64,000 bases of DNA, taken from Rhexocercosporidium sp. MPI-PUGE-AT-0058. Taxonomy: Eukaryota; Ascomycota; Leotiomycetes; Helotiales. Position 1 is the stretch's first letter; every line of letters begins with the position of its first letter. Shown piece after piece: positions 16,090 to 63,454 of this stretch. The notes under the pieces were generated by a model, which was given only the letters and a program-made list of their open reading frames with translations, had not been told where the DNA came from and searched no databases. The stretch spans positions 62,001 to 126,000 of the forward strand of contig JAGTJL010000019.1 in NCBI GenBank assembly GCA_020746875.1, given 5' to 3'. The translations under genes and the position numbers were made by a program.

Positions 16090-16196
16090 TACAGTCGATT
16101 ACAAAATCGGCTTCCTTTTCATACTCGCTAGAAGCTTTTTAGCCTTACTTATCAGAAGAGGCTAAGCTAAGTGCTATGCGACTAAGGAGCTTTATA
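16090..16196 (+). repeat. Left TIR of unit A
   Basis: Matches the left ends of B and C over about 100 bp, including the inner imperfect palindrome ttagcc...ggctaag and the trailing atgcgact (catatgact in others). Confidence 0.75.
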
Positions 16197-16413
16197 TAAA
16201 TTATTATATCTTTAGGCTATTGAATATATTTAAAATTAAAGCTTTTAGAATATTAATAATAATATATAAAGCTCACTTGCCTTAAGCTTTTCTTTATTAA
16301 AATTAGAAAAATAAAAAGAATATGAATTGTTTAATTATCTTAATATAATAGTTTTTAAAAGCCGAAAGTAATAATATTTTTTTTTATTAGTTATTATTAT
16401 TTTAATACCTTTT

Positions 16414-19400
16414 TTAAGTAAAAAGTAACTTAACGACGGCCTCATGCCCGTTCATAGCTGCCTATAACAGCGGCGTCTAACCGTTTAAGTCTTTCGAGTC
16501 AGCATCGACACCTTTTATCGCGAGTAATAGCTTGACGGCGGCTTTATGCCCGTTTTTAACTGCCTACTACAACGACGTCTCACCGTCCTTATCTTTCGAA
16601 TCAGCATTAACGCCTTTTATCGCAAGTAATAACTTAACGACGGCCTCATGCCCGTTTTTAGCTGCCTATTATAGCGGCGTCTAACCGTTTAAGTCTTTCG
16701 AGTTAACATCGACGCCTTTTATTGCAAGCAATAGCTTGACGACGGCCTTATGCCCGTTCTTAGCTGCTTACTACAGCGGCGTCCGATTGTATTTGTCTTT
16801 CGCGTCGGCGTCGACGCCCTTCTTGAGATAAAACGTAAGGATTACTTTATTCTTATACTCTGCTAAATAAGAGCTAATAGTTCTTCGCTAGGAAAAAATA
16901 AAGTCGCGTTCAAAGCTGGCCCATTTATATTTAAGGTAATAATACTGCTTTTAAAGGCTGTGAAGCGAGGACGATAAAGGCTGGCTATCCATTTAGATTT
17001 TTAAAAATATCTGAATTATATTATTACTTCTAGTGGCTAGCGCGGCAAATATTAAGAGCCTGTAACGCTTATCCTTAATATTAAAGCAGGACTCCTTCTG
17101 TGGATAGATTCGAATAAGGTCAGCTAAGTTCCTCTCGGCAAGGATATAAAAGAGAGTAGTTAATTCCGTATATTGCCGAATATCAAACTTTTTAAGAAGA
17201 TTATTAAAGAGTATCTATTATTAATAAAAGAACGAAATAATAAAATCTCCTTATTTTATTGTATTCTGTTAAGCATTATTAGCGTGGTAAAGGATATTAA
17301 AAACTGAATATTCGAGAAATGAAAACTTTAAGTTAATAATCTTTTATAATTATTTTGCTTTAGCAGCCTTTAATAAAGGGGCCGGTATATTAAAGTCTTT
17401 GTTAATTAAAGCTTTTAATTAAGCTAAGCAGCAATTCCTCAAAATTTCGTAGCTATAACCCACGAAGTTGCCGGAAACCCTAAATTACTGGCCCTCGTAT
17501 TTACTTAATAAGAAGTCTTAAATAGATTCGTAAATAAATTAGACTTCGAATGCCTTATTCCGCGTGACTTTAGTTAAGCCTTTTAAAGAACTTCTTATAA
17601 ATGTCTTTATTTAGTCTAACTCTATATCGTCTTAGTCTTAATAACTCGAAAAATCTTCGTCGAAGCCAAGCTGAATAGTAAAGTAAAGCTCCGGCGGCTT
17701 TAAAGGGCGAATTACAAAAAGAATCTATTTAAGACAAACTTGCAGCCGCTTAAAGTTCTTTTTATCTTTCGTAAAAATTATCTTAAATAAATTATTTAAT
17801 TTCGGCGGGATATCTTTAAGGCGCTCGTGGATCTTTTAAATTAAAATAAAATTGCCGAGGTATTTAGAGTTAAGAATATCGAGGACTAAGACGACCTAAA
17901 GAAAAATGCTAAAAGATTTTTCGAAGATACCGGACCGAAGTGACTCAGCTTACTTCGACTTGCCGAGCCTGAGTTTCGCCTTAATATATTACTTAATGTC
18001 TTTTATATGGCCGATTTCGTCTTTTAAAATGACTTCGATGCCCTTTTAAATAATTATAATTAAATAATGCTTACTTAAGAAGTAAATCTATAACCGAACT
18101 TGCGTTTCTCTTGCGCGATCGCACAGCTCCTTAAAAAAGCAAACTATATTCGTAACCTGACTTTTGTCGTATTTATTTAATATATTAACGAATATCGTTA
18201 ATAACCGACTCCTAAGTCTTTAAATAGCATGCGTTAGTATTTACTTTAATACTTCCTTATGCTATTTATTACGTTAAATAACTCTCGCGCTATCGGCCGT
18301 TAATTACTTTAAATTATTTTTACATTCGGCTACCTTTTTAAAGAATTAATGAAAAAAAAAGCGATAAAGACCTATTATTGACTTCTCCTCGACCGTACCC
18401 TGTGCGAAGAAGAAGAACGATAAAGTAATTTATAAGGAATTGCCTTTAGCGTTATACTTAAAAGTTTTAAAAAGAAGTTTCATTAAAGTTAATTTCTTAA
18501 TACCGGGATAGCTTTTAATTTAAAAGAAACCGCTATACTCTGGCTATTAGTTTACGTCGTGCTAAAATATATATTCGGGCTTATTAAAAAACCAGCGACA
18601 GGTCGTGCTTTAGGCGGCTGTCAGGCTTATTAAGCGCTCGTCGATTTTGGTGAAGTATAACTAGTCTATTAATGATTAATATATAATGGCCTCAGTATTA
18701 TGGCTATCTCTTTAAGCTAGCTCGTTTTAGATCGCTGGTAAGAAGTTTAATTATTAGCCGTTAATTAATATTACGTTATTATAAATATAATTATTCTTTA
18801 CTTACTGTTAAATACTGAATAAACTAACTTGCTCTTAAGAAGATCGAAGTGTGATTAAATCGGTAATGATTTCAACCGCTTTGAGGATCTGAAACTATTT
18901 AAGAAAGCTAATAATTCGTCATACTTACGCTTCTTCGAACGCTTGTGAATTTTATTTTAAAGCTTCTTAAATGCTTCTTATACCCCCTTACTATAAATAA
19001 GTGATATAAAGACGTCGAAAATACTTAATAAGGAGTAAATCCTATCTTTTTCACGCTTAGTTTAACGAATTTCTGTTTATAATATTTTCTCCTTAATATT
19101 AAACGTAAATAGTGCAATATTTTAAAGAGCCAAAACCCTAATCCCCGTTATTTTATATATCTATCGCTTTAGCGATTTTTTATTACTTAGTCGTTTGCCA
19201 TTCGAGCAAAAGAATTCAACTGATTATAAGGCAATAAGCTCTTAAAGGGTCTAGCCATAAGTAAACCATCGACTTTTCCGAAAAGTAGCTTATTACGACT
19301 ACAAGAATAGGTCGGCTTAATTATAATCGCTTGTCGAAATATTTAATAAATAAATATAATATTTAGCCGTATTATAATACCAGCGAAATATAAAGTTAAT

Positions 19401-19682
19401 AGCTTCTGCGAGCTCAGTATTATTCGCTTTATCGATATAATAAGTATTTACTTAAAAGTATCGCAAGCCGTCGCGCTCGGCTTGGTCTTTATAGAAGTCG
19501 ATCTTCTTATAACTAGACTTATTGCTATTAGTATAATTTATTAAGTCCTAGAATATGACTTCTTCTGTATTCGCGCCTTATATGTGCGAAAGGATAGTAT
19601 ATTTGGGAATATTATCGCTGACGAAGTCCTCGGTCAAATTGATTTGGCTAGTATTATTGCTTTCTATTTACAGAAGACGTAT
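16414..19682 (-). pseudogene. NLR A: HET-NACHT-ankyrin receptor relic
   Basis: Minus-strand relic of a heterokaryon-incompatibility-type STAND protein. N-terminus: HET domain, with the start codon RIP-changed to ATA at 19682-19680 followed by RLL, then KYTILSH, YKKIDFYKDQAERDGLRYF, INFIFRWYYN and KSRWFTYG.TL.ELIA (19680 to about 19200). Middle: linker FFNKPEY...PEYSG, then a P-loop at about 18495-18515 read as YPGIKKLTLMK, where GSGKS is expected, and a STAND core ending FIYES..DFLL (about 17530). C-terminus: four 33-residue ankyrin repeats (16414-16830), each close to TPL..AAKNGHEAVVKLLLA, closing at TAA 16414-16416. HET-NACHT proteins are known fungal allorecognition and cell-death receptors. 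Stops are TAA/TAG and the span is not a multiple of three, so the gene is dead by start loss, stops and frameshift. It is the sole gene of unit A. Confidence 0.8.
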
Positions 19683-20045
19683 TAATTAGACTAGAATTTC
19701 AAGGATATTAGGAAAAGGGGGTTCTCGAATTTATTAAAGAGTCGGCAAGTATATATAATTATTTATTGAGTTGTAAGTTAAGAATGCATTTAAAATGACA
19801 GCTTTATAAGACCTTTATAATGTCTTAATATTTAGGCAGAAATTCAGCTTCGAGGGAAAATCAGCTAGTTATAATAACTCTAGCGTGTGGCTCGTGTGGC
19901 TGAATTTGAGTGATCGGGGCGGAAGCCGATTTCGCTAGCCGCGGTATTATTTTCGCATTTATTGCTTACGTGAAACGTTATTAAAGCTAGGGCTAAGAAT
20001 CTTCTAGCGAGTGTGGAGGGGAAACCGATTTTGCAAGTAATTATA
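19682..20045. repeat. 5' flank of NLR A and right TIR of unit A
   Basis: The right TIR occupies about 19985-20045 and is inverted relative to 16090. The 19870-20110 stretch keeps near-normal composition with many CA/TG dinucleotides, unlike the erased gene beside it. It would contain the promoter of NLR A; no core promoter can be named. Short open frames here on the minus strand cross the TIR and look incidental. Confidence 0.55.
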
Positions 20046-21780: not shown

Positions 21781-21786
21781 TAGTTA

Positions 21787-22398: not shown

Positions 22399-25300
22399 AT
22401 ACAGAATAAATCTGCCAAAGAAGCTGCGCGACGCCAAAAAGAACTCTTAGTACGACTACGCAACGACCTGAAGAACAATCGACTCGCGATCATAACTAGT
22501 ACGAGAGTCACACTCAATATGACGGCAGACATATCTGGGAAACCTCTCTCTCGAATCACATGGACGGGCTTAATGCGAAATAATCTGGACTATCTGGTTA
22601 ACGAGGGCTACGTAGACAGATCTAATCGGCGGACGAGTCGGGCATATAACGCGCTCGAGGATCCAGAAATCGACGGCCTCTTAAACACTATAAACATTTT
22701 GAGTAATCAAATGCAGTAATAGGGCCAATTCCTTATATAGTTAAAGTCGGTGTTTGGAAGTCTAAGTCAGGAAACCAAACATCTTAATCTTCTAGACATG
22801 CTTAAGGCACTACACGAAAGAGAAGCAACCTTATTAATAATAAATTACGACGATGTTCTCGAGAAATACTGTAGATTACAGCGCGTTAGTCGATCGAACC
22901 AGGATAATATTTCAAGGTTTCAGCGTAGAAATTTCAATAAAATCTTCTATATATATAAGAGCTATTATAACCCACACGAGGTCGTCTTAGATATAACAAA
23001 TTATTATAACGTAAAGCATTCAGACGGAGTACAAGATATACTTAAAACCTTCTTATAATATAAAATTATATTATTTGTTAATTACGGCTTAAGGTTAGAA
23101 GATCCAAATTTCGATACTCTCTTAAGATAGGCTAATAAACGGCATAAGAATATCTTATATCGGCACTATTTGCTTATTCGAGACGATAATAGCGTGAAGT
23201 ATCAGCCGCTAATAAGAATAAAGTATAATCTAAGATACGAGGATCTTATTATATATTTGAAAAAGCTATTAGATAATCAAACAGAGAAGCAAAGCCCGGA
23301 ACTACTTATAAGCTTAAATTTAGTAAAAAATAAAGAGAAATAATATAATTTATATTCTTCGCTATTATAAGATTATATTCGTAATATGCTTTTATAAATT
23401 ATAATTAACTTTAATCAGCTTTTCTAAAACTATTTAATATATTATTTTTTAGCTGTAATAAAGATTTCGTTAGCCGCCAATCTTATTTAAATCAGCTGAT
23501 CACAATTCTACACGCCGAGGATACCGAGGAAGACTATTATCGTATAGCTCTAATAAGCCTTAATAAGGTCGGAAAGACTTAAATTGCCTTGGAATGCGCT
23601 TTTCAGCTCCAGTCGATTTCTCCGACGTGCTTTGTGTTTTAAGTCCGGATTAGTGATCGAACAAGTTTTGATAATACGTTTCGCGATATTAGACAGCAAC
23701 TCAAGATTCCCAGACTTAAGGACGATAAAGCAGACGTTAAAAGATTAATTAAGATTAAGTTATCTTAAGAAAACATAAGGAAATAGCTCATAATTATAAA
23801 TAACGCGGATAACCTCGAAATATTCTATCGCAACGATTAAGATAGAGGATCGAGTGCATTATCCGAGTAGCTTCTTTTCAGTATTCTTGGAGCGATCTTA
23901 TTTACGACCCGAGATCGCGAGGCTGTTATAAGATACGCTGGCTTAAATGTAATTAATATAAGCGAGATGAATAATAAAGAAGCCAGAAAGCTCCTCCAAC
24001 GAAGTCTTCGAGAAAAGCAGCTTATTAATAATAATAGCAGTATAATAAAGCTGCTAGAATTACTTATTAATCTTCTATTAGTAATAATGCAAGCAGCCGC
24101 ATATTTAAATGCTAAGGATAGTATTATTAACGAGTATCTCAGAATCTATAAAGAGAGTAATAAGAATGTTATCAAGCTATTAAGTAAGGATTTTGAAGAC
24201 GTTAGAAGATATCCGGGGATGAAAAACTTAATCGTTACGACGTGGCTTATTTCTTTTAAGTAAATCTAGGACCGAAACCCTTTGGCAGCGGATATTATAG
24301 CTTTTATTTCTTGTATTAAAGAATAAGATATTCCACGGGATCTATTACTTTTAGCTTCCGAATTCGATAAGACAAAGGCACTTAGTACTTTAAAAGCTTT
24401 TAGATTTATCAAAGAACGCGTTAGTAGAATATCATATGATATGCATCGATTAGTTTATACGGCGATATAAAACTAGTTAAAGCTTAAAGACGAATAAAGA
24501 AGTTAGTAATAAAAGAGTCTAAAACAGATCTCGAATACTTTCCCGTGGCCCTAGTATAAGAATAAAGATATGTAGATAATATATTTTTTTCACGCGTAAT
24601 ATATAATTACTACTTTTAATATAGGCTTTAATAGAACAAAAGAGATGAAGAAGCTACTAAAGAGATTATTACATAACGTAAGATAATATTCCTAAATCAA
24701 AGACTAATACGCAGAGGCCGAGGCTATATACTAATAGACGCTGCAGCTTAAAGAAATAGTACTCGGCAAAAAGCATTTAAGCACGCTCGCGAATATAATA
24801 AACCTCGCATCTGCGCTTTATAGCTAAAGCAAATACGCAGAGGCCGAGGCCATATACCGGCAGACGCTATAGCTTTAAGAGATAATACTCGGCAAAAAGC
24901 ACTTAAGCACGCTCGCGAATATAATAAACCTTATATCTGCGCTTCACAGCTAAGGCAAGTACGCAAAGGCCGAAGCCATATACCGGCAGACGCTGTAGCT
25001 CTAAGAAATAGTGCTCGGTAAAGAGCACTTAAATACGCTCGCGAATATAATAAACCTCGTATTTGCGCTTTATAACTAAAGTAAATACATAAAAGCAGAG
25101 GCCATATACCGGCAGACGCTGCGGCTACAAGAGACAGTGCTCGGCAAAGAGCATTTAAGCACGCTCGCGAATATAATAAACCTTGTATTTGCGCTTTCCA
25201 GCTAAGGCAAGTACGCAGAGGCCGAGGCCATATACCGGCAGACGCTGCAGCTCCAAGAGATAATACTCGGTAAAAAGCACTTAAATACGCTCGCGAATAT

Positions 25301-25874
25301 AATAAGCCTTATATATGCGCTTTATAGCTAAGGCAAGTACGCAAAGGCCGAGGTTATATATCGGTAAACGCTATAACTTTAAGAGATAGTATTCGGTAAA
25401 AAACACTTAAGCACGCTTTTAAGTATAATAAACCTCGCATTTATACTTTATAACTAAAGCAAGTATATAAAGGCCGAGGCCATATACCGGCAGACGTTAT
25501 AGCTTTAAGAGATAATACTCGATAAAGAGTACTTAAGTACGCTCTTAAATATAATAAACCTCGTATTTACGCTTTATAACTAAGGTAAGTACACAGAAGC
25601 CGAGGTTATATACCGGCAGACGCTACGGCTTTAAGAAATAATACTCGGCAAAGAGCACTTAAGCACGCTCGCGAGTATAATAAATCTCGTATTTACGCTT
25701 TATAATTAAAGTAAATATATAGAGGCCGAGGCCATATACCAGCAGACGCTGCAGCTCTAAGAGATAATACTCGGCAAAAAGTACTTAAATACGCTCGCGA
25801 GTATAATAAACCTCGCATCTGCGCTTCATAGCTAAGGCAAGTACGCAAAGGCTAAGACTATACGCCGGAAGTAA
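22399..25874 (+). pseudogene. NLR B: SIR2-like-NB-ARC-TPR receptor relic
   Basis: A probable start, ATG changed to ATA at 22399, leads into a SIR2-like domain: KPLSRITWTGLMRNNLDYLV (about 22540), TLLIINYDDVLEKYC (about 22828, the family TNYDD motif), YKSYYNPHEVVLD (about 22957, family HGSY.DP) and LFVNYGLRLEDPNF (about 23072, family GxG..DPNF). Many expected Gly/His are RIP-changed. NB-ARC follows: SLNKVGKT (P-loop, about 23558), LIIINNADNLEIF (Walker B, about 23790), ILFTTRDREA (about 23890) and RYPGMKNLIVTTW (about 24207). Nine 42-residue TPR (kinesin-light-chain type) repeats of 126 bp fill 24700-25860, each around AEAEAIYRQTL....LGKKHLSTLANIINLASAL. SIR2 domains on STAND proteins are NAD-consuming effectors in known prokaryotic and some fungal immunity proteins; that role is inferred here. 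TAA at 25872-25874 is taken as the end. The N-terminal third is far less RIPped than the rest. Confidence 0.82.
24700..25860 (+). repeat. Nine near-identical 126-bp TPR-coding repeats
   Basis: The phrase ctcgcgaatataataaacct recurs every 126 bp from about 24785 (24911, 25037, 25163, 25289 and on to about 25793). Units differ mostly at C/T and G/A, meaning the array was almost homogeneous before RIP. Two units (near 25415 and 25541) show ctctt/cttttaag variants. Confidence 0.9.
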
Positions 25875-33681: not shown

Positions 33682-33780
33682 TACATAGCTTCTAAAATAG
33701 CTTCCCCTCTACACTCGCGAGAAGATTCTTAGCCTTACCTACTAGAAGAGGCTAAGCGAATAATCATATGATTAGCAAGC
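33682..33780 (+). repeat. Left TIR of unit C
   Basis: tacatagcttctaaaatagc, then cttcccctctacactcgcga, gaagattcttagccttacct and gaagaggctaagcgaa, ending in tcatatgattagcaagc. The outermost bases deviate from the family (two bases shorter than caatcgcttgcaaaatcgg). Confidence 0.8.
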
Positions 33781-37739: not shown

Positions 37740-39480
37740 TTATATATTATTAAGAGCGGCCATTTGAAGGTCGTTTAAAGACTCCTTAATATTAAGGCTG
37801 ATATTAATACTATTATTGTTATTAAAGGAGGTAGACGGACTGCGCTATAAGCAGCTACTAAGGGCGGCCATTTAAACGTCGTTTAAAGACTCTTAAATGC
37901 CAAGGCTAATATTAATATTATTATTATTATTAAGGAAGTAGACGGACTACGTTATAAATAGTTATTAAGGGCGGCCATTTAAACGTTGTTTAAAGACTCC
38001 TAAATGCTAAGGCTAATATTAATATTATTATTACTATTAAAGGAGGTAGACGGACTACGCTGTAAACAGCTATTAAGGGCGGCCACTTAAACGTCGTTTA
38101 AAGACTCCTAAATACTAAGGCTAATGTTAATACTATTACTAATTATAAGGGTGGACGGACTGCGCTATAAGCAGCTGCTGAGGGCGGCCACTTAAAAGTC
38201 GTTCAAAGACTCCTTAATATTAAGGCTGATATTAATACTGCTATTACTGTAAATGGACGGACTACGTTATAAGCAGCTGCTGAGGGCGGCTACTTAGAGG
38301 TCGTTTAGAGACTCCTTAATATTAAGGCTAATATTAATACTATTACTGCTGTTAATTGAGGTAGACAAATTACGGTATAAATAGCTACTGAGGGCGGCCA
38401 CTTAAAAGTCGTTCAAAGACTCCTTAATATTAAGGCTGATGTTAATACTGCTATTACTGTAAATAGACGGACTACGTTATAAGCAGCTGCTGAGGGCGGC
38501 TACTTAAACGTCGTTTAGAGACTCCTCGATGCCAAGGCTAATGTCAATATTATTACTATTATTAAAGGGGGTGGACGGACTGCGTTGTAAGTAGCTGCTG
38601 AGGGCGGCCACTTAAACGTCGTTCAGAGACTCCTTAATGTTAAGGCTAATATCAATACTACTATTACTGCTGCTAATTGAGGTAGACGAACTGCGCTGCA
38701 AGCAGTTACTAAGGGCGGCCACTTAAAGGTCGTTTAAAGACTTCTAAATGCTAAGGCTAATATTAATACTGCTATTACTACTAAAGGAGGTGGACGGACT
38801 GCGCTATAAATAACTACTAAGGGCGGCCACTTAGACGTCGTTTAAAGACTTTTAAATGCTAAGGCTAATATTAATATTACTATTAATTATAAGGGTAGAC
38901 GGACTGCGCTATAAGCAGCTATTAAAGGCGGCTACTTAAACGTCGTTTAGAGATTCCTAAATATTAAGGCTAATGTCAATACTATTGCTTTTATTAAAGG
39001 GGGTAGACGGACTACGTTATAAGCAGCTATTGAAGGCGGCCACTTAAAAGTCGTGCAAAAACTCCTTAATATTAAGGCTAATATTAATACTATTACTGTT
39101 ATTAGTTAAGGTAGACGAACTGCGGTGCAAGCAGCTGCTAAGGGCGGCTACTTAGAGGTCGTTCAGAGACTCTTCGATGCTAAGGCTAATGTTAATGCTA
39201 CTACTGCTGTGGATAAACGGATTGCGTTATAAGTAGCTACTGAGGGCGGCCACCTAGAAGTCGTTCAGAGACTCCTAGATGCCAAGGCTAATATTAATAT
39301 TATTACTACTATTAAAGGGGGTAGACGGACTGCGCTATAAGTAGCTACTAAGGGCGGCCACTTAAACGTCGTTTAAAGACTCCTCGATGTTAAGGCTAAT
39401 GTCAATGCTGCTGCTGCTGCTGGTTAAGGTGGACGGACTGCGCTGCAAGCAGTTGCTGAGGGCGGCCACTTGAAGGTTAT
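37740..39480 (+). repeat. About 17 near-identical ankyrin-coding repeats
   Basis: Unit of about 100-108 bp with fixed phrases: gacggactgcgctataagcag, then gagggcggccacttaaacgt, cgttcaaagactcct and aaggctaatattaatac. Each encodes GGHLKVV.RLL.AKADIN-like ankyrin repeats; length variation comes from the variable attattactatt/aaaggaggt part. Repeats are more alike than independent selection would leave them. Confidence 0.92.
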
Positions 39481-39514
39481 AAAATTATTGAAATCTTTTA
39501 GTGCATGCAATTGA

Positions 39515-40016
39515 TATTATTAGCGCTTTTATCAGTGCTAAGATTGCTTTTATAGGCATTTCATTTATTAATCGGCCGCGAATGAATCTAGTATTATCGT
39601 TTATTATTCAAAGTAAATATTAATAATCTAATTATCTTTTGTTAAGCTTCTTTATAACGATCCTAAGTCTCTGCCGTAGTAGCTTACCGGTATAAGGACT
39701 AGAGGCTTTTGACGTATAAAGATAAGTATATCAGAATAAGAGTTTAGTAATACCGATTTGTTACTAAGTAAGTTTGGTTACTAAGTATTAGAAGAATACT
39801 ATTTGAAGTTAAGCACGGAGCTCTTATCAGAAGGGAATGCTATCTACTTATATAGAACCTTCCTGCCTTTGGATCTTAAGGCCCAAAATACAATATCCGT
39901 TACGTGATCACCACCTGTAGTTCTCTGTGTACCCAATAGTAAGCCGAGCATTATGCGGCGCTTATATATACTAGGGAGCTCAAAGGTATCGTGACCTTTA
40001 TATTACTTGCTAGTTA
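39515..40016. other. 3' flank of NLR C
   Basis: Non-coding segment between the ankyrin gene and the right TIR. No second gene or repeat seen. Confidence 0.4.
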
Positions 40017-40083
40017 TATGACATTACGCTAAGCCCCTTCTGATAGGTAGGGTTGAGAATCTTTTAGCAAGTATAGAGGGGAC
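40017..40083 (-). repeat. Right TIR of unit C, inner part
   Basis: Reverse-complement match to the left TIR of C: tatatgacattacgctaagc, ccttctgataggtagg and gagaatcttttagcaagtat. It continues after the Tc1 copy at 41473-41501 (aggggaatccgattttataa, gcgattgta). Confidence 0.82.
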
Positions 40084-41472
40084 TATCGATGTGGGTATTA
40101 AGTGGCCGTTTGAGGCACGTGCGCTCCCTACTAAAATTAAAGTAAATAAATAATAATATATTAACTTTAATACTTTATTATTTGGCCCTCTCTTTCCTTA
40201 CAAGCTTTTAATTTACGAGGATACTTATTAAATAGATTTTGAATGGATTTTTGAGGTATGTCCTTTATGAAAACACGGGTAAATCGCTTTAAAGCTCCTT
40301 TCTAACTCGTATTTCGTCTTATATGAAATCGTTTTTTCAACGGAGCCGCAAGTGATTCAAAAATAAAGAAATCCGGTGATACGCCTGGTAAAGCGAGTAC
40401 TTTAAGGTTATTTGCTTAAACCTAATTGTCGGTTTCCTTAGAAAGATATGCTGAATCGGAATCGTAGACGAGAATTAAGCCTTAAGAGCGAAAGTCGTCC
40501 AAAATCTAAGGGAGGATTTGCTCAATATAGCACTTCGATATTATTTTGCTATTAGAATTGCCTGCGTTATACGGAATCATCTTTCGATAATTGTATCTTA
40601 CGAGGACGAAGATATTAAAGAGCTTTAAATAAGCGTCTTCACGAGCCTTTGCGTTCACATCTTTCGCGGAAACCTTCTTTTATTAAATATTATATAAAGC
40701 ATATCGATGTTCTTTCCCTTTTTTTCTCTTAATTTATCTTGTAACTTCCGTTCCAATTCTTATATGAAACTCATTATAATGTATTATATTGAACCAGTCT
40801 TTAAATTCAGGACGATCCTTTTGTTATTCGATCCTCCAATCTTCTCGCGCAGATACTTGATCTTTTATAAGCTTTTTTTCTTTTTCGCAAATCGCAATAA
40901 TCAGGTTTTCGTTTTCCTTACAGATATCTCGTACCGTTCGATCTTCAATTAATCGTTACCCCGGAGGATTAAAGTATATGGTTTCCGGTAAGTGAACTCC
41001 AGCCGTTATTGTAATATTTGTCCACGGAAGACCTTTATCGGGAATAAAAGTCGAAGGATCTTTTAAATAATTAGAAATCGTAGCAGAATCGTCTCTTGAA
41101 AGTCCTCTTCGCCGTCCACGAGGATCAGGGCCCGAATCAGGTCGATTATAAAGCTTCCGAGGGGAATAAGAAATAAGAGTTCGTGATTAAGAGCGAGATA
41201 AAAGGCCGGAAATCTTCTAGACGAGGGAGTAAGGGATCGGAACGTTTAATTTTTGTTTTATAAGTTTGCAGACGATAATAGCGGTTCGCGCAGGAGTTTT
41301 GGCATGTCCCGATCTATTGAAAGTAAGATTAAGTGGAAGAATATAATCTTTTTTGCGTCGAGAGCGTCGGCGAGCTATCGTTAAGTTATTGTTTATAAAA
41401 GATAGTTTGTTTACCTTGATTTTGGTAGGGAGCGCACGTGCTTTAAACGGCCACTTAATACCCACATCGATA
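40084..41472 (-). mobile_element. Tc1/mariner transposon inserted in the right TIR of unit C
   Basis: A 1.385-kb element (40086-41470) between TA dinucleotides, with inverted termini of at least 60 bp: tcgatgtgggtattaagtgg, then ccgttt and gcacgtgcgctccctac. It codes for one transposase on the minus strand. Composition is close to normal, with fewer RIP changes than its surroundings, so it is probably a young arrival. The flanks read aggggac-TA and TA-aggggaat, an extra near-duplication beyond the expected TA that I cannot explain. Confidence 0.87.
40167..41465 (-). pseudogene. Tc1/mariner DDE transposase, lightly RIPped
   Basis: Exactly 433 codons from about 41465 to TAA at 40169-40167, one frame throughout, broken by only a handful of TAA/TAG. 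N-terminal DNA-binding half: MGIKWPFKARALP (this part overlaps the TIR, so the true start may lie further in), then ARRRSRRKKDYILPLNLTF. Catalytic half: YNEFHIRIG (first Asp position reads Asn), EHRYALYNI, NYRKMIPYNAGNS, LILVYDSDSAYLSKET (second Asp) and LPGVSPDFFIFESLA (Glu intact), then a C-terminus KKRFHIRRNTS...KACKERE. This is a well-populated fungal Tc1/mariner group. The Asp-to-Asn change plus stops make it inactive; it could be repaired by few changes, implying recent arrival. Confidence 0.87.
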
Positions 41473-41501
41473 AGGGGAATCCGATTTTATAAGCGATTGT
41501 A

Positions 41502-44129: not shown

Positions 44130-44200
44130 TATAATCGCTTGCAAAACCGGCTTCCTATTTCCTGGCAATCGCAAAAATTCTTCGCTTAGTCTGATTTAGC
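44130..44200 (+). repeat. Left TIR of unit D
   Basis: taatcgcttgcaaaaccggc then ttccta matches the TIR family; the following 45 bp (caaaaattcttcgcttagtc) align only loosely with the inner part of the other TIRs. Confidence 0.65.
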
Positions 44201-44932
44201 GTCCCCTGACCACATTTAACTATATAAGGTTAGGCCGGTTAATCCTTACGAGCCTTCTAAAACAATCTAGAGAGAAGTGGTAAAATATGCTTAGAAATTA
44301 CTTCTACAAGCAATTAAAGTAAATCAAGTAAAAGGATATTAACCGATATCCCTACGAAGCGAAAATCCCGTAATACAATTGGAACTTCGACAAAGTTCCG
44401 ATTATTTTAACCCTATATAATAGTATTTAATTTCGCTCTTGTATATCCTTATTCACTCGTATTTCGACGTTAACTACGAATTTAAATTTCATAAGACGTT
44501 ATATATCGGTTTTTTAATTATATTTAAATAATTATTCGTCTTGTATTTTACTTCTTTACCTAAGGTTTTCTTTCCAACTGCTTAATATTTTCGAAGCTTA
44601 AAATATTATAGAGCTAAAATAGACAAAGGAAATTCAATTTATAATAAGCTACTTTATCTTATTCGAAGGGGAGTAAATTACTATATAAGATAATCGCTAA
44701 GACTATGAATTTTAAGAGTGACAGTTCGGCTATATTTACTGTTTTTACATTTGGAAGCCTTAAGTTAAATATCGGAGATATGGCGTTAGAAGGACTTGGC
44801 TTATAAATAATGAAGTTACGCTACTAAGCTCTTAAGCGCATTTATTAGTCATTATCTTACTTCACCTCTTAATAATAAATATCGGTAGTAAGTTACATTA
44901 TTATAGCATTATTTTATATGTAATTAATTATA
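44201..44932. other. 3' flank of NLR D
   Basis: About 730 bp of AT-rich non-coding sequence between the left TIR and the end of NLR D. Nothing identified. Confidence 0.4.
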
Positions 44933-47900
44933 TTATTTTGTATATACCGAGCTTTTAATCTCTAATTCCTTTGTTTGCCATCTAAGTAATATTATATTAG
45001 AAGATAACGTATAAGGGTGATTAATACCGATAGTCTTAATTTGTAATGCTATATATCCCTTTATGAGCTTAATAACTTCTGTGTCTCGGCTAAGCCCTTT
45101 TTATATAAATATAAGATTGGTCATACTAGTTAATGTAGAAGGATGCTTTGCATTTAATACCCTCTTTCTCGTCTTTATTACTTATACCTCCAAGTCTTCG
45201 GCCTCCTTTTAGCGTCCCTGATTCCAATAAGTCGAAGCTAAGTTAGCGATGCTAGTCAGCGTGGAAGGATGCTCCGCACTTAACACCCTCTTTCTCGTTT
45301 CCATTACTTGCACCTTTAAGTCTTCGGCCTCCTTCCAGCGTCCCTGATTCTAATAAGTCGAAGCCAAGTTGGCCATGCTAATCAGCGTGGAAGAATGCTC
45401 CGCACCTAACACCTTCTTTCTCGTCTCCATTACTTACACTTCCAAGTCTTCGGCCTCCTTCCAGCGTCTTTGATTCCAATAAGTTGAAGCCAAGTTGGCG
45501 ATGCTAGTCAGCGTGGAAAGATGCTCCGCATCTAAAACCCTCGAGCATATCTCCAGTTCTGTCGCTTGCAGCTCTTCGGCCTCTTTCCAGCGTCTTTAAT
45601 TCCGGTAAGTCGAAGCTAAGTTGGCTATACTAATTAGCGTGGAAAAATACTCTACACTTAATACCTTCTCCTTCCTTTTCGTTTCTTGTAAAAATAAGAC
45701 TTTGGCCTTATTATACTTTCTATTACTATAAAGATATATCCTAAATCTCTAAGCTAAATCGATCCTTTTCTTTTTATCTTTCGCAATTATATCAAATATT
45801 AGCATATAACGTATATATAGTAAATATATTCTCTATACGCTTCTGTTTTCGTAATTATGATTTAGGAACACTTCTTTTAATTGTTTAATCGCCTTTTCGC
45901 CCTATTAAGCTATTAGATTATTTTGCTAAAGCCAGTTTCTTATTGTAAGATGTATTAATCGGTGTAGATTAAGAGCCAGGTCTGCCGCTCGCTTGACAAT
46001 AAATAAGTAAGCTTCGAGTGTCCCGATTGCATTAACTACCTTTTTTCGAGACGCTCTTGCCGGAAGAAGAGATTGCGGAATATCCTTTGGATCGATGTAG
46101 GCCATAAACGAGAGGTAGTCGGCCGCGAGAGAGTCGTAATGCCGAATCTGCTTAAATAATATAAGTTATATAATTGCCACGGGGTTTTTAATATTATTGT
46201 ATTTTTTGTTATCTTTAAATTCCTCGTTAAGGAGATTAATAACGTCTTCTTCTTGTTTTATAAAAAGAAATAGATAATCGACAAACTTAATCCCATTCTC
46301 ATTAATATATGTTATTGCCTGAACGATAGCAAGCGGGAGGTAAGTAAGCTCTTTTAGTAAAGCTATAATATCTTTTCTGTTATTAATTAAATTTAGATTA
46401 ATTAAACACTTTTATAATAATTGTATTACTACGGTTTCGTTTATCTCCAGTACTTTTACGATGCTTTACTATACTAGCTTAACGGCTGTCTTTTTGTCGC
46501 GCGTCGTAAAAACGATATATTTTTGCTCACTTTGTGAGAGGTAATTGGTTAAACAGCCGGATCTTAAGTTAAATTAATTGATTTATATATTAATATTATT
46601 AGTATTATTAAATATAAGAACCCACTGTCCCGCGTTTTCTTTACTCAAGTATCCTTGTACGAGGTTTTTAATATTCGCTTTTTTATTGTCTAAGCCAGGG
46701 ATTTTAAGTTATCGGGCGACGTCTATATATGCTTAATGCAGACTTTTTATATTAATCGCGGGTATTTAGATAATTAAGCAATTCCGAAATTAGTCTTTAA
46801 TGCGGTAAACGAGTGCAAGCGCCAACTAAGTCTTTCTTACTCTTCCAAAGCTTTAAACTGTAACTTTTATTATTCGACCACCGATATATAGCTTTTCTTC
46901 GATCTCAGTAAGCTAGATCTCACGATTTATGAACTTGATATTTCTGTCGAATAGTACGATAAACGGAGTATAGTCGGCTATTAAAATTAGCCTTAGCAAC
47001 TCAACTTATAAATTACTTACTTAGCTGCTGCCGGATGATGCGTACGGCGTGTTCTTATACGGTTTAAGTAAATGGCAGATTAATAAGCTAATATAAGCTT
47101 ACATTCACAATAGCAGCAAAAGATATCTCGGTACGATCTATACCGATTAGTTAAGACTGCCTTATTACTATGCGAAATTCTCGATATACATATTCTGCTT
47201 AAGTCTTAAATTCTGGATATAATCTCGTACCCGGAGCTTTTGGGCTATATAGTTCAAATAGCCTTTTATTACAGCTTTTATAGCGCCTTTCTTTTTGTAC
47301 TTATTAAGCTTAATGCTCTGCAGATCCTACTCGACATTAAAGCGGAAATACCGCTTTTTATTAAAGTGCCTAGCCTACCGAGCTATGAACTTCTTCTTTA
47401 TATTCTCCGTCTTAATCGCGATCTTAACCACCATCTGGCTAAGGAACTTAACTAAGCTGTCTTCGAAAGCCTTCTTACTAAGGTTCCCTGTCCTAATAAA
47501 AATAAAGCACTTAACAAGTAGCTTTAAGTCGCCAGTTTCCGAGCATTAGATATTAGCTGCCTCTCCTTTTACCTCGTCTACCGGATTATTAAAACCTAAT
47601 CCGCCATCGGCAAAAGAACGGTCCTCGATACTGACAGAGTCAAAGAAGGTTATTACAATAGACGTCGTAAGGGCCGCTTAGCATATCGTCGCTCGAATAG
47701 TCGATTCATTAGGTAAGCTATAGCTTTAAAGACGGACAATATCTTTTATATTGCGGTCGGTAGTACACATAAAGTTATACTCGTTAGAATCACCCTTCTT
47801 ATATTAGCAGAGTACCCACGTTCGACATTCACGCTCCGTCCCGTCATTAAATAACTCGTTTTTAGGTATATTATTTTATATTACCTTTCGAACCGCTTTC

Positions 47901-48320
47901 TTTAATTTCGCCGAGTCGAACCGGGCTTTAGCTTTCCCGGTCTTACTAAACGGAAAAGAGCTTAATTTCTCTCTAAACATAACTTCCGCGAGTTCGCTGT
48001 AGGCGGTAATACATTTATCCACGTCCATCTCGAGCCGGCTAAGCATAATCGCAATTAACTTATAATAAAGTTACGTATTGCTTGCAAGATATATAAGAAG
48101 CTACTTACCCGCCAGTGCTAATGCCTTCGATAAGATTAAATATTTCATATAATTTAATAAGAAGAAGGTCGCTCTTCGTTCGTTCATTATTCAGATAATT
48201 TATAATATTCTTTAAGATATAAAGCGTTGAGAGGCCTTGCACGCCGCCGCCGTCGAGAGACAGTAGGCACAGCCCGGTATTATCCAGGGGGTTTGGCTTG
48301 TCGTTGCGATACGCCGGCAT
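44933..48320 (-). pseudogene. NLR D: patatin-NB-ARC-TPR receptor relic
   Basis: Start ATG at 48320, MPAYRNDKPNPLDNTGLCLL. Patatin-like phospholipase domain: SLDGGGVQGLSTLYIL (oxyanion loop), GISTGG (about 48108-48125, nucleophile Ser of GxSxG, family GTSTGG) and FADGGLGFNNP (about 47600, catalytic Asp). NB-ARC: SFGRVRKT (P-loop, about 46825-46850, expected GFGGVGKT), QWVLIFNNTNNINI (Walker B region, about 46610), IVFTTRDKKTAVKL (about 46500), ELTYLPLAIVQAITYI (about 46330) and NLHRLIHLTIRN. Five TPR repeats of 126 bp (about 45100-45680) near EAEDLEVQVMETRKKVLGAE, ending at TAA 44935-44933. Patatin-NB-ARC-TPR proteins are known fungal NLRs; the effector is predicted to act on membrane lipids once triggered. 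Both catalytic patatin residues survive; the P-loop is damaged and the span shows a net frameshift. The first 250 codons are lightly RIPped, the NB-ARC heavily. Confidence 0.83.
45100..45680 (-). repeat. Five 126-bp TPR-coding repeats of NLR D
   Basis: The phrase ctagtcagcgtggaaggatgc (variants) recurs at about 45127, 45253, 45379, 45505 and 45631, an exact 126-bp step. Units 45253-45560 are almost identical. The period equals that of NLR B but the encoded consensus differs. Confidence 0.88.
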
Positions 48321-49229
48321 TATTTATTATATAATTAGATTTCTTAGGGTAATTTAGATATGATTTATATAAAAGAATAAATTAAAGTAAGTTTTAATAA
48401 TACGAAAAAGAGTAAGCGATGTCCGGCTATCTAATTGAAGTGGTTTTTAGTTAAAGCTGTAAATACGCGCCTAAATATGCCAAAACCTACCTCACGTGCC
48501 CTTGTAATCTACTAGATCAACGCCGCTAAAGTTTAGAGTTTAGCTACGGACCGTTCTATAAGTTAATATGACTAATCTAAATGCGATTTAAATCTTTCAT
48601 TCTTAAGACGAATTATAATAGCAGTTAAAGTTATGCCTTTCACTTAAATATAATACTAGAATAATTACGGAGGAAAAGAGTATTTTATTATTTCGCTGAA
48701 ATTTATAATATATTAATTACTAATGCGCCTTTATAATAAATCTTTATTTATAAAGCACTAACTCAAGGAGGACGAATCAGCTAATTAAAGAGTTAAATAT
48801 CTCTTATAGTAATAATTAAAACTCGCTAATATTAATAAAATAATTTCTTTCCTTTAATTTCATTTACTCCTTCCTATGCAAGGCAGACGTTTGTTATCTT
48901 ACTAGTCTTTGCCACTTTTATATAATTAAGCTTCCCCGGAGTTTTCGAATAGTCTAATTAAAGCCTCGGGAAAAGGGATTTAATATTATTTAACGGCCTC
49001 CGATTTACGGCTCGAATTTTTCCGGGAAAGAGATTAAGGAAATCCCCTGGTATCGCGGCAGCTAATATAAATACAGAAAGGAGTTTCGTTAACGTAAGCT
49101 TATTCCCGATTATTCTTTTTTCAGATTCTTTATTATAAAGGACTAAAGTCACGAAAACAGACTTATTATAGTTATTTTTGCCTTTGATATTATAATAAAG
49201 GATATATTAATTTATCCGTCCAGAAGTTA
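48321..49229 (-). other. 5' flank of NLR D with an ambiguous open stretch
   Basis: Non-coding for the most part. A 64-codon stop-free minus stretch at 48958-49152 (KLLSVFILAAAIPGDFLNLF, PGKIRAVNRRP) may be the 3' part of the upstream gene after a frameshift, or chance; an alternative frame through the same bases is also plausible if Gln-type stops are ignored. The promoter of NLR D should lie within 48321-48900. Confidence 0.3.
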
Positions 49230-51060
49230 TTATTAAAGTATGGATAATCGAGAGCTTTTCGTATTCTGGGCCAGATTTATTTAAGATTGTGAGGTTATTA
49301 TATTAGGCGCCGGGTCGCACGGTACGAAGTCTGTCGAAGATTCTGCCATCTTTAATATTATATTTATTAAAGAAATCGCCTCCTTCTTAAGTTATTACTC
49401 TTCGGCGAAGCTATTAAAAAGGGAAGTCGAGGACGTGATTTTATATAAGTAAAATATTATGTTTTTTTACGTTACAAAAGAAGTAAATTTTAAACTTATT
49501 GGTTCGGTAGAAAAGCAAGGTACTTAATCCGTTGTTTTGGAAGTTAAATAAGAGCTTTTAATAAGACGTTCATTTAAAAGCGTTATCCCTACTCGTGCTA
49601 TACCCAAGTACTAAAATAAGCTTCTTAGTTATAGTTTTTTCTTATAAAGTAATATCTATTTTAAGTCTTAAGGGTTTAAGTAATTGACTAATTATTCTTG
49701 CGCGCTATTAAATCATAAGCTAATAAAATATTTCTTTTTATAATTTCCGTTATTAAGTTTTAATACTATTAGCGCTATTTTTCTCGAGCTGCTTAATAAC
49801 TTTTTCGAAATTACCTTCGTCTTTAAATTCGCCCGTTAGTTTACTAGGTTTAGATAATATATTTTACAGTTCCTTCTCAACGACTTTCTTCAAGTTCAGG
49901 CGTATAATTGCTTATTATATTTCCTTCTTTAAGTAATCTACGTATTATTAATAATTTAATTCAGAAGCAAAGCGTGCTAAGAGTATTATATTCATTTGCT
50001 ATTGTTCTTCGGCGATACGCTCTAACGTATTCCTCTCGTATTCTCTAAGTCTTTCTTTTTTAACGAAAAGTACTGGCTTTACTAAATTACGAGTAAACTT
50101 AATATATTTTATTATAAGACTTATTACAATCTTTGAATAGTTTATGGATAAATCTTCAAATAAGTACTCCGATACGCCTAGTATAATAAGATCGAGTATC
50201 CGGGTAATATCGGTCGTCTTCGTAAATACTTTCACGATATTATCTAAGGTAAAGCCCGATTCATCAAGCCTTATACGCTTCACCAAAGCATATATAGCTA
50301 TAATTAGTAGATTTTTATTTACGAGATAAGGCTCCATTTAAGAGGAGTCTAGAATTATAATTATCTCTGCCGCCAGAGACTATGCGATCAGGATTTCCTT
50401 AAATAGCTAGCTAAGCTGAGCCGGAGATTCAGGTGCAGTTCGATGAATAGTTCCATCGACTGAAGGCTATAGCGTATCTAATACTAGCGTATGGCTGGTC
50501 GAGCTCTATATAACAGGAGACTTAAGGAAATACCTATCTAATATAGCTAATTTATTATTATAAGTTATAATAAGTATATCATCTTCGGGGAACAGTTTTT
50601 TATTGTCTTTTCTCTAAACAGCCGCTTGCTAAAGGGATTCAGTAATATTAAAATAATATATATTCGTCGAAGTTTCCAAGTTCTTTAAGGCGTGGGGGCT
50701 GCCGCGAGAAGTAATACTAGTACCCAATTCTTCAGTAGACGGCTTGCCACTAATGGACTCACCAGCGCCATATCTGCTTATAAAATCATTCTCGAGGCAA
50801 TTCTGGTCTAGCACTCTACATATCTTGAATCTACGCGCCCTAGCACTTGTTCCTTATATAGCAGTATAAGATCGTTTAGATCGAGCCGCGAGGCGCCCAG
50901 ATATACGGCGAGATTCTATAAGTTCGGTCTCCGCTAATAGAGGGCTAAGGGGAAGAGTCGATGAAGGTGCGAATTCAACCGGAGATAGAAACCGACCTAC
51001 TAATATAGTCTACTCGCCAAAATATTATCGAACAAATAAAGCATTAGTAAAGCTTTAAGA
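49230..51060 (-). pseudogene. Uncharacterised large gene in unit D
   Basis: A single minus frame can be followed for about 600 codons. N-terminal part (51060-50630, lightly RIPped): SFTNALFVR.YFGE.TILVG, RFLSPVEFAPSSTLPLSPLL, AARSKRSYTAI and SISGKPSTEELGTS, a serine/arginine-rich, probably disordered region. Middle: KLFPEDDILIITYNNKLAIL and GTIHRTAPESPAQLS, then a stop-free 113-codon block (49999-50337: YALVKRIRLDESGFTLDNIV, ITRILDLIILGVSEYLFEDL). C-terminal part: charged coiled-coil-like VKKERLREYERNTLERIAEE, YVDYLKKEI and EKVIKQLEKNSANS, continuing to TDFVPCDPAP near 49280. The first Met cannot be fixed. No domain recognised. It is in the same orientation as NLR D and directly upstream, so it could be co-captured cargo. 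Confidence 0.5.
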
Positions 51061-51849
51061 AGTTGATTATGCCCTTATTTATTTGTTTGATTAAGTCGAA
51101 TTGTTAATTCGCGTATTGCTTTATCGTCAACCTCAGGAATATAAAGGATGCGCAGTATATCGCGCACTTTCGGCGCTAATAAGTTAAGAATTAATATTAT
51201 AGTTATTCTGAGGATACCCAATTAAGTACTGAGCTTACTGCAGAGTATATAAATGCTTTATACGAGTGCGCGATGGCTTAACTATTGATTCGACAGACTT
51301 TGCTTTTTTTTAGTAATGTACGATACGACTGCTCCCCAAACAAGGCTTGCTTACTAAGTAATATATAAGCCATTATACATTACCCCACTAACATACTATC
51401 GTCCTATATGCACGAACTATAACCTGCTATTATGGATAGCCCATACGTGATTACACCTATGCATTCTGTAGATATTATAATTAACGAGATATCAAGATGC
51501 CCGCTTACCGCAGTAGGCCGAGATAATATCGAGCTCGGGTGGCTTTAATAAGTATTTCGCAGTATCGTGAAAAGCCTCGATCGCAGTTATTATCGCAAGT
51601 AAGTAATGATGTATACGATTACTTGCGTGACTTATCGCCCTTCGAGCCATCTGTGCCTTTTATACTAGCGCAAATATCGGGGATTTAATAAACAGATATA
51701 ATAAAAGAACCGTTATTTAATAAAGAACTAATTATTATTAATTTTACTTTTCGAAACCACTTTATAAACTAGGATATAAAGAGTAACCGTAGTGATACTC
51801 ACAGCTAACGAGACGAGATATCTTAGCTAAATAAACTCCAATTGCTTTA
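51061..51849. other. Divergent intergenic region of near-normal composition
   Basis: Lies between the minus-strand gene above and the plus-strand gene below. 51100-51680 keeps CA/TG dinucleotides and normal GC, so it is weakly RIPped. It would hold both promoters. No motif assigned. Confidence 0.4.
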
Positions 51850-53026
51850 TATAAATAAATAAGAAGAAAGAAAAGCATATAATAAGCCCGTTCTCAGTTA
51901 TATCTATTACTCGATTAAATAGAAAGTTATATTTAATAATAAATTAATCTTTAAGAATATAGAATAGAATCTTGTCCTAGCGCTAATCTTTTACTAATTT
52001 TTATTCCTATAACTTAAGCTAAAGAAACTCCTTTACAAGAAGCTGCTATTAAATAAGCGTATTAAACTAAATGATATAAATATAGTTATTTCGGTGACCG
52101 ATCGGTTAGAAAAGGATTTTATAAAGCGATTTAATAAAACCGATATTAATTAGTTAGTAATAGAAAAGCAACTTATGACTTGAGAAGAGCTCTTTTGTAT
52201 TAATAAGAAACTAAAGTTAAATATATCTTTTAATTATATAAAAACAGGTCAGCTTTAGACTTCTTTAATAAGAAGGAGTGACATACGAGGTAAATCTTTT
52301 GCTACGTAGCAAATGCGTATTAAAAGTCATATATAATTAAATATTAAAAAAGCATTTACGGGGGAACTATTAGTTTAGTAAGACGTATATAATTTCATGC
52401 GTTGCCCCGGCTTACCTTGCTATTTTAGGCTATATTACTAAAAGGACCTAGTTAAAAAGAAGCATTATAAGCTAAAAACTCATTAACTAAAGGCTCTAAT
52501 ACGTTATATAAAGCACAGCGGCCTTTTACGGACACATAATGACGTTCCCGAGAGTATTCGTGAGCAAATATATACAGAAGAGCAGCAGCGACTTAAAAGG
52601 CATCAAAAGGCTGCTTATATGCCGTCTTTGAACATTCCTCTTATTAATATTATTAATATACTACCTGAATTATTTTCTCAATTATTAATGCCGACCTTAG
52701 CGATAGCAAACTCATAATCTATTCCTTTTCGTTTTGACGAGGTTATAATTAAATCTTTTTTAATTTATAGACTCCGAGATATTACTCTAAAGGAATATAT
52801 AATCTGGCAGTAATTATAAGTTAGTGACGATATATTAAAGATTAAATACATAAATGTTTACGAGAAGGCAATAGAGGCTGATTTGGACCTCGAACAGATT
52901 TACGAAGACTAAAATCCCGACTTTTTTATAAGCAAAGATAATGATAAAGATAAGGACAAAGACTTAAGCGTAAGGCCAGGGGTTGCTCGTCGATTTGTAA
53001 AAGATATTTTATATTGGGTAATATAA
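51850..53026 (+). pseudogene. Uncharacterised gene with CPGLPC motif in unit D
   Basis: One plus frame from about 51860 to TAA at 53024-53026, with RIP-type stops and no frameshift noticed. Helical N-terminal half (LKLKKLLYKKLLLNKRIKLN, VTDRLEKDFIKRFNKTDI). Central Cys motif MRCPGLPCYF (about 52400) followed by KKKHYKLKTH.LKALIRYIK, HNDVPESIREQIYTEEQQRL (about 52530; stop-free), an acidic C-terminus with EADLDLEQIYED (about 52870), a Asp/Lys repeat (NDKDKDKD, about 52935) and a closing VARRFVKDILYW. I recall this layout from uncharacterised fungal proteins often near transposons but cannot name a family. The true start is not visible. Confidence 0.5.
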
Positions 53027-53119
53027 TAAAAGCCTTTCAATAAGACGCATAAAGGATAATAACTATAATGTACGTTAATTTAATAGTATTACTTAAGCGA
53101 CTTTTGCATTTACTAAGGA

Positions 53120-54180
53120 AGACTAAGGCTGGGAATCTTCAAATTATTTATTAAAATTCATTATAATTCTTTAACTATTATCCCAGTATACCTAAAGTGA
53201 CCTTCGGCATTACTCTTTTTGTCCTTAATTATATTAATATATTATTCCAGAAACCTAGCAAAGTCTTGCTCTGGAAATTCTTTGAATATCTGCTAGTGTT
53301 TCTTAATAAAAACCTTTAGCTTAGTAAAGAACTCCTTAATAAGATTTAGATCGAGAGAGTACGGCGGCAAATAAATAAGTTTAATACTTATAATATTATA
53401 TATTTATTTAACTCGCTTAATATAATAAAAGAAAGCATTATCTATAATAAGCATAGATTTTAATTCCGGCCACCTGCTATAATAAAGAAAAAGCTGCTTA
53501 AGGAAATCTTCAAAGACGTCGCTATTTATAGAGCTTTTAAAAACACGCGCGAGAAGGATCCCGTCTTACGAATAGGCTAGTAAAATTTAGTATCGTTAGC
53601 CGCGGTGAAATTTCGAGATATAAACAGGCGTTATACTAAAAGGAGCCTAGCCTGTTTGCCTAAACCCGATCAACTTATTACATCCAGATTTATTAATATA
53701 AACGAAATAATACGATCGAAAGGCGAATAAGTTCCGTAAATAAAAATCCCGAAGGTCTGGATTTTATTCTCTCGCCACTCAGCGAGCAGTCTTCTTTAAC
53801 CATTTTCTTGCCTTTAAAGCCTTACTGATATTAAATATCGATACGAGAATATTAAATTCGTCTTATAAAAATATTATTATTTCCTTTAAGTAAAGCTTAG
53901 GCTTCTTTAAGAAGTGTTCATATAAAGCGTCAATTATTAGAAGTGTGATTGTTCGGGGTCTCTTACTATTATTCGGCAGGGCTTTCGTGGTCCCGTAATA
54001 ACGAACGTTCGAGCGTATTGCTTTAATCGAACGCTTATTGTATTTAGCAGCCTCTGCTATTTTGTTAATCTTCAGCTTCTTATTAAATATTATATCTCGG
54101 ATTAGGTCGTGCTTTAAAGAAGCGAGGTTAAGTGCTATAGCTTAGTCACGTTTGAGTCTGATTTCGATAATAAAAAAAGG
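53120..54180 (-). mobile_element. Second Tc1/mariner relic, near the right TIR of unit D
   Basis: Contains the transposase at 53161 to about 54170. Its own terminal repeats could not be delimited. The sequence just left of it (ctaaggctgggaatcttc at about 53128) resembles the inner part of the unit TIR (ctaagaatcttc), while the outer TIR lies to the right at 54290-54331, so this copy may have split the right TIR of D as the other Tc1 copy did in C. Confidence 0.5.
53161..54170 (-). pseudogene. Tc1/mariner DDE transposase relic (DDE_3 type)
   Basis: Minus frame of about 335 codons ending at TAA 53163-53161. N-terminal helix-turn-helix region: LKHDLIRDIIFNKKLKINKI, AEAAKYNKRSIKAIRSNVRY, RPRTITLLIIDALYEHFLKK. 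Catalytic core: FVYINKSGCNK (first Asp reads Asn), MLIIDNAFFYY (second Asp intact), LIYLPPYSLDLNLIKEFFTK (Glu intact), then a C-terminus NAEGHFRYTGI. The order and spacing are those of the common fungal DDE superfamily endonuclease group of Tc1/mariner. Start codon not visible. RIP stops are TAA/TAG with a few TGA. It is a different subfamily from the copy at 40167-41465. Confidence 0.82.
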
Positions 54181-54289
54181 ATGTATTCTCACGAGTTGAA
54201 GAAGGTCTTTAAATGTGCCGTTCAACGCTAGTCTATATAGGGCTAGACTCGTTTTTGTGAACCCGTACAAGCGAGATTTAGAGTTTGTG

Positions 54290-54331
54290 GCTGCTTTGAT
54301 AGAGGGGAAGCCAGTTTTGCAAGCGACTGTA
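54290..54331 (-). repeat. Right TIR of unit D (outer part)
   Basis: gatagaggggaagccagttt then tgcaagcgactgta; inverted match to 44130 and to the outer ends of A-C. Confidence 0.7.
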
Positions 54332-63448: not shown

Positions 63449-63454
63449 CCTTCG

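Follow-up and report, generated by a model that had tools for sequence, protein, structure and literature searches.

The locus described here raises the question of whether fungal immune receptor genes can travel as the cargo of a DNA transposon family. In the window, a 64,000-nucleotide stretch of contig C11 from the one genome assembly examined (Rhexocercosporidium sp. MPI-PUGE-AT-0058, Helotiales), the original prediction had placed the same terminal sequence in inverted pairs at 16090/20045, 21787/26532, 33682/41501 and 44130/54331, each enclosing one relic of a NOD-like receptor (NLR) gene, and had proposed a terminal inverted repeat (TIR) family that captures whole NLR genes. All four pairs are present, and each of the four units holds an NLR relic, in every case apparently damaged by repeat-induced point mutation (RIP). 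Absent from the prediction were a Tc1-type transposase relic in unit 4, an element nested in the right terminal repeat of unit 3 and, outside the window, three further facing pairs on the contig. We consider it probable that the units belong to one TA-targeting TIR family, most likely of Tc1/mariner (DDE_3) type and mostly non-autonomous, which carries single host genes; the family is enriched for immune genes, not dedicated to them.

The terminal repeat begins at a TA, and its core reads TA-CAGTCGCTTGCAAAATCGGCTTCCCCTC. Six of the eight window ends match a 20-mer at up to three mismatches, with no match in 100 shuffles, and seven of the eight score 34.5-45.1 with a profile derived from outside-window ends, compared with a maximum of 8.8 over five shuffled loci. 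In the eighth end (33682, on the left of unit 3) bases of the core are missing, and about 114 nt of it align at 78% to the left end of unit 2. In an alignment of 46 of the 47 ends, made without one that is eroded, the flanking columns hold at most 0.21 bits and conservation begins at the TA (T in 98% of the ends, A in 91%). The dinucleotide is likewise carried by 42 of the 45 hits of the 20-mer at up to two mismatches, a search made without using it. Past the 28-bp common core the ends continue into up to ~100 bp of subfamily-specific sequence, which we read as three types (A, B and C), usually alike at both ends of one unit. Two hallmarks of Tc1/mariner elements are found here: the units have terminal inverted repeats, and the ends have a TA dinucleotide at the insertion point.

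Genome-wide, the 20-mer at up to three mismatches finds 77 places, against one for its reversed control, and a 25-mer that includes the TA finds 126, against 21 for the reversed pattern. We placed 111 ends, namely 100 of the 126 places of the 25-mer, ten more from the 20-mer search and the eroded window end; among these, neighbours within 16 kb form 25 facing pairs as opposed to 8 outward and 7 same-direction ones. The facing pairs span 855-10202 bp, and most contain gene-length open frames or relics.

Cargo was examined in 21 of the 25 facing pairs, the four in the window and 17 outside it (L069-L074, L076-L085 and L002), and comprises a HET and/or NLR-type gene in 13 and other genes in eight. 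Outside the window the HET/NLR share is nine of 17, made up of four NLR or NLR-like genes and five HET genes with no detected nucleotide-binding (NB) domain; the remaining eight carry something else. The stricter view of a family dedicated to NLR cargo thus fails outside the window, because TIR copies there mostly lack an NLR. TIR pairs do enclose HET/NLR genes beyond chance: at least seven of the 21 pairs outside the window contain a HET, NACHT or NB-ARC hit among those listed, against 0.29 expected under the crude assumption that hits are evenly spread over the genome. The same 21 pairs contain no listed P450 hit (0.11 expected) and no listed DDE_1 hit (0.17 expected). HET counts derive from the best 150 of 526 candidates and DDE_1 counts from the best 150 of 258, while the small P450 control uses 92 of 99 rows, the seven omitted ones each being a second fragment of a gene that was in the count. 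If all first-look candidates are counted as real, the expectation over the 21 outside pairs is 0.77, against nine of the 17 examined.

The side of the ends on which the listed hits fall is also informative. Within 3 kb, hits inside and outside the ends number 6 and 0 for HET, 5 and 0 for NACHT and 1 and 0 for NB-ARC, or 12 and 0 in sum, with controls at 0 and 0 (P450) and 2 and 3 (DDE_1). Within 6 kb the counts are 7 and 0, 5 and 0, and 1 and 0 for HET, NACHT and NB-ARC, and within 8 kb they reach 7 and 0 for HET and 6 and 0 for NACHT. A second control family, MFS_1, was uninformative because only nine of its 702 candidates were scored. Seen from the receptors, for 77 of 83 NACHT hits there is no end among the 111 listed that faces the hit from within 8 kb.

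The window cargo was identified by tblastn with long frames of the same genome and by Pfam on translations in which stops were read as X:

16090-20045, no strand: unit 1, TIR-bounded, 3956 bp
16420-16884, minus strand: unit 1 ankyrin repeats, 102-nt period
18091-18603, minus strand: unit 1 NACHT/NPHP3_N relic (Pfam NPHP3_N, E 9.1e-8, stops read as X)
18942-19664, minus strand: unit 1 HET domain relic, 47-49% identity by tblastn to HET-NACHT proteins encoded by the same genome
21787-26532, no strand: unit 2, TIR-bounded, 4746 bp, a RIP-mutated relative of L073 (C12:884511-889156)
22399-23340, plus strand: unit 2 SIR2-like effector relic, 74.5% amino acid identity to the L073 SIR2_2 frame
23415-25871, plus strand: unit 2 NB-ARC and TPR relic with 126-nt repeats, 62% amino acid identity to the L073 NB-ARC-TPR frame
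33682-41501, no strand: unit 3, TIR-bounded, left end eroded, 7820 bp including a nested insertion
36063-37265, plus strand: unit 3 NACHT region relic, 26% identity by tblastn to the L069 NACHT-ANK frame (E 1.45e-18)
37620-39505, plus strand: unit 3 ankyrin repeats, from repeat analysis and tblastn
40084-41472, no strand: separate 1.4-kb element in the unit 3 right TIR, with 87-nt inverted arms at 84%
44130-54331, no strand: unit 4, TIR-bounded, NLR and transposase relic, 10202 bp
44969-46999, minus strand: unit 4 NB-ARC and TPR relic, 47% amino acid identity to the L035 frame, which is located at an NB-ARC hit
47573-48019, minus strand: unit 4 patatin-like effector relic, sub-threshold (Pfam Patatin, E 7.5e-5, 23.5 bits against a cut-off of 27.7)
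53164-54141, minus strand: unit 4 relic of a Tc1-type DDE_3 transposase, 10 stops, ~190 nt inside the right TIR

The architectures read HET-NACHT(NPHP3_N)-ANK on the minus strand in unit 1, SIR2-NB-ARC-TPR on the plus strand in unit 2, and patatin-NB-ARC-TPR on the minus strand in unit 4, so that the tripartite layout of fungal NLRs (effector, NACHT or NB-ARC, repeats) is complete in these three, with the patatin part of unit 4 sub-threshold. In unit 3, a plus-strand NACHT-ANK gene, neither tblastn nor Pfam identified an effector domain. Its right end must be older than the nested insertion, since a different element with 87-nt arms of its own splits that end, and the alignment score of the two unit 3 ends rises from 56 to 129 when the sequence is joined across it. 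The longest stop-free frame in the window has 142 codons and TA/AT ratios run from 1.06 to 1.70; judged from such sequence features, the cargo genes look like RIP relics. Transposable element domains sought on the plus strand of three flank stretches around units 1-3 were not found there.

Several smaller features accompany the units. Inside unit 3, the 461-bp segment 35543-36003 has inverted ends of 42 nt that are 95% identical and is possibly a young insertion resembling a miniature inverted-repeat transposable element (MITE). Just outside unit 4, a 142-codon open frame at 54815-55240 runs over 15-nt repeats; repeats spaced 23 nt occupy 62240-64000, and 63453-63489 forms a 37-nt inverted repeat at 97% with 63581-63617.

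Unit 2 and L073, which lies on another contig, may be taken as the best sign of movement: their DNA aligns TIR to TIR, end to end, with the likeness ending at the TA. Identity ranges from 69 to 94% per 150-column window, the two terminal windows that include flank fall to 63% and 60%, and one window consists mostly of gaps (32 aligned bases). As many as 664 of the 891 substitutions are C>T or G>A, and C>T is commonest before A (177 of 308). When the genome is searched with L073, unit 2 is matched at 80% over query positions 678-4646, again ending at the TA, and for many other units, too, the match of the common ends goes no further than that point. As to a family that carries whole NLR genes, its sharp TA-TIR limits, its facing pairs across the genome and the presence of one NLR unit at two sites with the same limits all support it; the idea of NLR-only cargo is not supported.

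Outside the window the examined units carry the following:

L069: NLR, NACHT-ANK
L070: NLR, DUF676 esterase, NACHT region and ANK
L073 (C12:884511-889156): NLR, SIR2-NB-ARC-TPR
L081: NLR-like, HET, NTPase domain (sub-threshold) and TPR
L071: HET, no NB domain detected
L074: HET and ANK, no NB domain detected
L078: HET, no NB domain detected
L080: HET and zinc fingers, no NB domain detected
L082: HET by position of the HET hit, contains stops, no NB domain detected
L072: other, fucose-lectin-like, sub-threshold
L076: other, no family, membrane-like by eye
L077: other, weak PigL_N
L079: other, weak SH3
L083 and L084: other, no Pfam family
L085: other, APH-like, sub-threshold
L002: other, LicD

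L069 and L070 were first chosen for their NACHT hits, yet both belong to the 25 facing pairs. One unit, on contig C56, has a HET frame of 741 codons, 81% of which matches at 100% a 601-aa protein of Rhexocercosporidium sp. MPI-PUGE-AT-0058. Among sites with a single end, C45:1009545 and C60:831981 also face a stretch resembling the TPR part of L073, and L005 (C12:1060978) has WD40 repeats. A check for parent copies, made for L073 only, showed that its SIR2 stretch matches C8 and C45 at 90% and that its long match is another unit. The two 90% DNA matches lie at C8:1981533-1982714 and C45:66821-67336, the former adjoining a NACHT hit (C8:1980588-1981127), and suggest recent exchange of effector domains between NLRs.

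Four facing pairs stand outside the cargo count, at C1:2220395-2226760, C11:126381-131005, C11:141166-142918 and C11:157111-162048; with the latter three, which lie beyond the window in C11:126381-162048, seven pairs occupy ~84 kb of contig C11. Further ends occur beside or within units, at position 2729 of L078, at 19946 of the window, and at C34:1881825 and C34:1882071. At L001 (C25:117181-120200) three same-direction ends fall within 0.8 kb, which may point to insertions nested in one another or to spare ends available for capture.

The candidate for the responsible enzyme comes from unit 4, whose transposase relic contains a DDE_3 domain hit at 53296-53631 and has 58 relatives in the protein database; among them, records from Aspergillus, Colletotrichum, Rhynchosporium, Glarea and Lachnellula bear the name Tc1-like transposase, and one from Pseudogymnoascus is a hypothetical protein. 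The relic matches 17 pieces of the genome, and the best DDE_3 hit of the genome, related to it, lies 3.1 kb inside the end at C2:58503. Listed hits of DDE_1 or DDE_3, the transposase classes searched, occur in just one of the 25 pairs, unit 4. No second left end for the transposase scores above the shuffled level nearer than 44130, and as the right TIR has no nearer partner, unit 4 is either a single element that holds both genes, NLR and transposase, or a fusion of two.

We propose that a transposase made elsewhere would act in trans, binding the ends and moving the enclosed gene, together with its own flanking DNA, by cut and paste. Capture probably took place as a gene became flanked by two ends or by an additional nested one. 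The HET/NLR excess could arise either from such genes being favoured when moved or from their location where the element inserts, and RIP would later destroy duplicated copies; the window resembles such a graveyard, and units with long frames persist elsewhere.

A number of observations weigh against this proposal. The listed DDE_1 hits also lean inward at larger distances (7 inside and 4 outside within 6 kb, 9 and 5 within 8 kb), P450 stands at 1 and 0 and then 2 and 0 at these distances, and NB-ARC is balanced at 1 and 1 within 8 kb. Most of the 17 transposase matches have no nearby end, as judged by eye among the 100 of 126 places listed, one match (C23:2903091) lies just outside an end, and the putative tie of the family to a DDE_3 enzyme comes from two places. 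The sole inverted partner of the end beside the unit 4 transposase is 9 kb away, so that two separate elements may have been joined in unit 4. A genome search for an empty site with the unit 3 junction returned its own two flanks only, and six joined junctions compared with the sequences examined revealed no empty site. The TA is 2 bp only, and does not amount to proof of a target duplication. L075 (C34:2374494-2378509), a HET-NACHT-WD40 gene of HNWD type in two long overlapping frames, has an end on its right side only within the 8.1 kb examined, and eight of the 21 examined units carry genes other than HET/NLR.

The family might instead be mobilised by a pogo/Fot1-type (DDE_1) transposase, which we regard as unlikely. 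Such an enzyme also targets TA and is common in the genome (258 candidates, 150 scored), a DDE_1 relic is found inward of the single end C12:1060978, at a distance of 1.6 kb, and the inward lean at 6-8 kb points the same way. Against this stand the near-even listed hits within 3 kb and the lack of any listed DDE_1 hit in the 21 outside-window pairs, and when 30 DDE_1 loci were searched for TA-flanked TIRs, 21 yielded them, none like the unit ends, and nine gave none. It is also improbable that short MITE-like elements merely inserted around genes in transposon-rich regions, so that the units were never mobile as such. The extra ends beside or in units, the triple at L001 included, and the fruitless empty-site searches fit such chance flanking; it accounts poorly for the surplus of facing over outward and same-direction pairs, for immune hits that lie exclusively inside the ends within 3 kb, for the entire unit shared by unit 2 and L073 up to the TA, and for ends that, on our reading, usually agree in subfamily within a unit. 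Passive spread of the ends in the flanks of segmentally duplicated NLR loci is very unlikely, since related SIR2/TPR cargo does recur at several ends (C12, unit 2 on C11, C45 and C60) but likeness stops at the TA and the same ends, in inverted orientation, bound unrelated HET, NACHT, LicD, lectin-like and kinase-like genes.

The preferred reading, a Tc1/mariner-type family carrying host genes, suggests a direct route by which fungal immune receptors move around the genome. More tentatively, it may act as an allorecognition-gene shuttle in which selection for new self/non-self specificities keeps the HET/NLR units; if so, het loci could be gained, lost and spread in the form of TA-TIR cassettes, perhaps from one species to another. 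To the question of how fungi maintain large, changing NLR/HET repertoires although RIP punishes duplication, the transport of entire receptor genes with no duplication that lasts would be an answer open to testing; receptors should then show presence/absence polymorphism at clean TA sites. PMC12258605 expects RIP to conflict with organismal defence by receptor duplication, but found only weak correlations.

How, then, does the family compare with known systems? Starships are very large fungal cargo transposons driven by a tyrosine recombinase, which lack TIRs and may carry NLRs, whereas the pairs here span 0.9-10.2 kb and have TIRs and TA ends. The impala/mimp elements of Fusarium use a Tc1-type enzyme and a TA target and have ends beginning CAGT; we know of no described gene cargo in them. 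MITEs are under about 800 bp and have no coding content, a class into which pairs of 855-10202 bp, most with gene-length frames or relics, do not fall. In the open PubMed Central literature, at the level of titles and the starts of abstracts, with subscription journals and preprints outside its scope, we found no dispersed TIR family with NLR/HET genes, the nearest system being ToxhAT, and the accessible parts of PMC1805685, PMC2873952, PMC9262711, PMC12222747 and PMC12258605 describe no such units.

Gene-carrying TIR elements as such are already known. Plant Pack-TYPE elements, especially Pack-Mariner, are described in PMC8903248 as non-autonomous TIR elements (TA in the case of Mariner) with host coding DNA between their ends, which gain new DNA by mobilising neighbouring insertions. 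Our units share with them superfamily-typical ends around host coding DNA, the TA and, unit 4 apart and as far as DDE_1 and DDE_3 searches go, the want of a transposase of their own; the plant elements hold gene fragments, whereas many of the fungal units hold gene-length frames and are HET/NLR-enriched. Fungal hAT elements with a transduplicated histone H3 gene (PMC6710886) are likewise TIR transposons with a host gene and RIP-damaged copies, but have an 8-bp target duplication and a single gene at hundreds of copies, as opposed to TA, mostly different genes and low copy number here. ToxhAT, according to PMC6737239, is a 14-kb element with eight genes and 74-bp TIRs, for which no target duplication was found; it resembles our units as a TIR-bounded fungal element that includes an NLR-type gene (patatin-TPR) and, separately, a nested transposase gene, with RIP-damaged ends in two of three species. 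It differs from them in being one multi-gene element, our units mostly carrying one gene each and forming a dispersed family. To the extent of these searches, what is new is a TA-targeting, probably Tc1-like fungal family whose units mostly carry different genes and are strongly biased towards HET/NLR.

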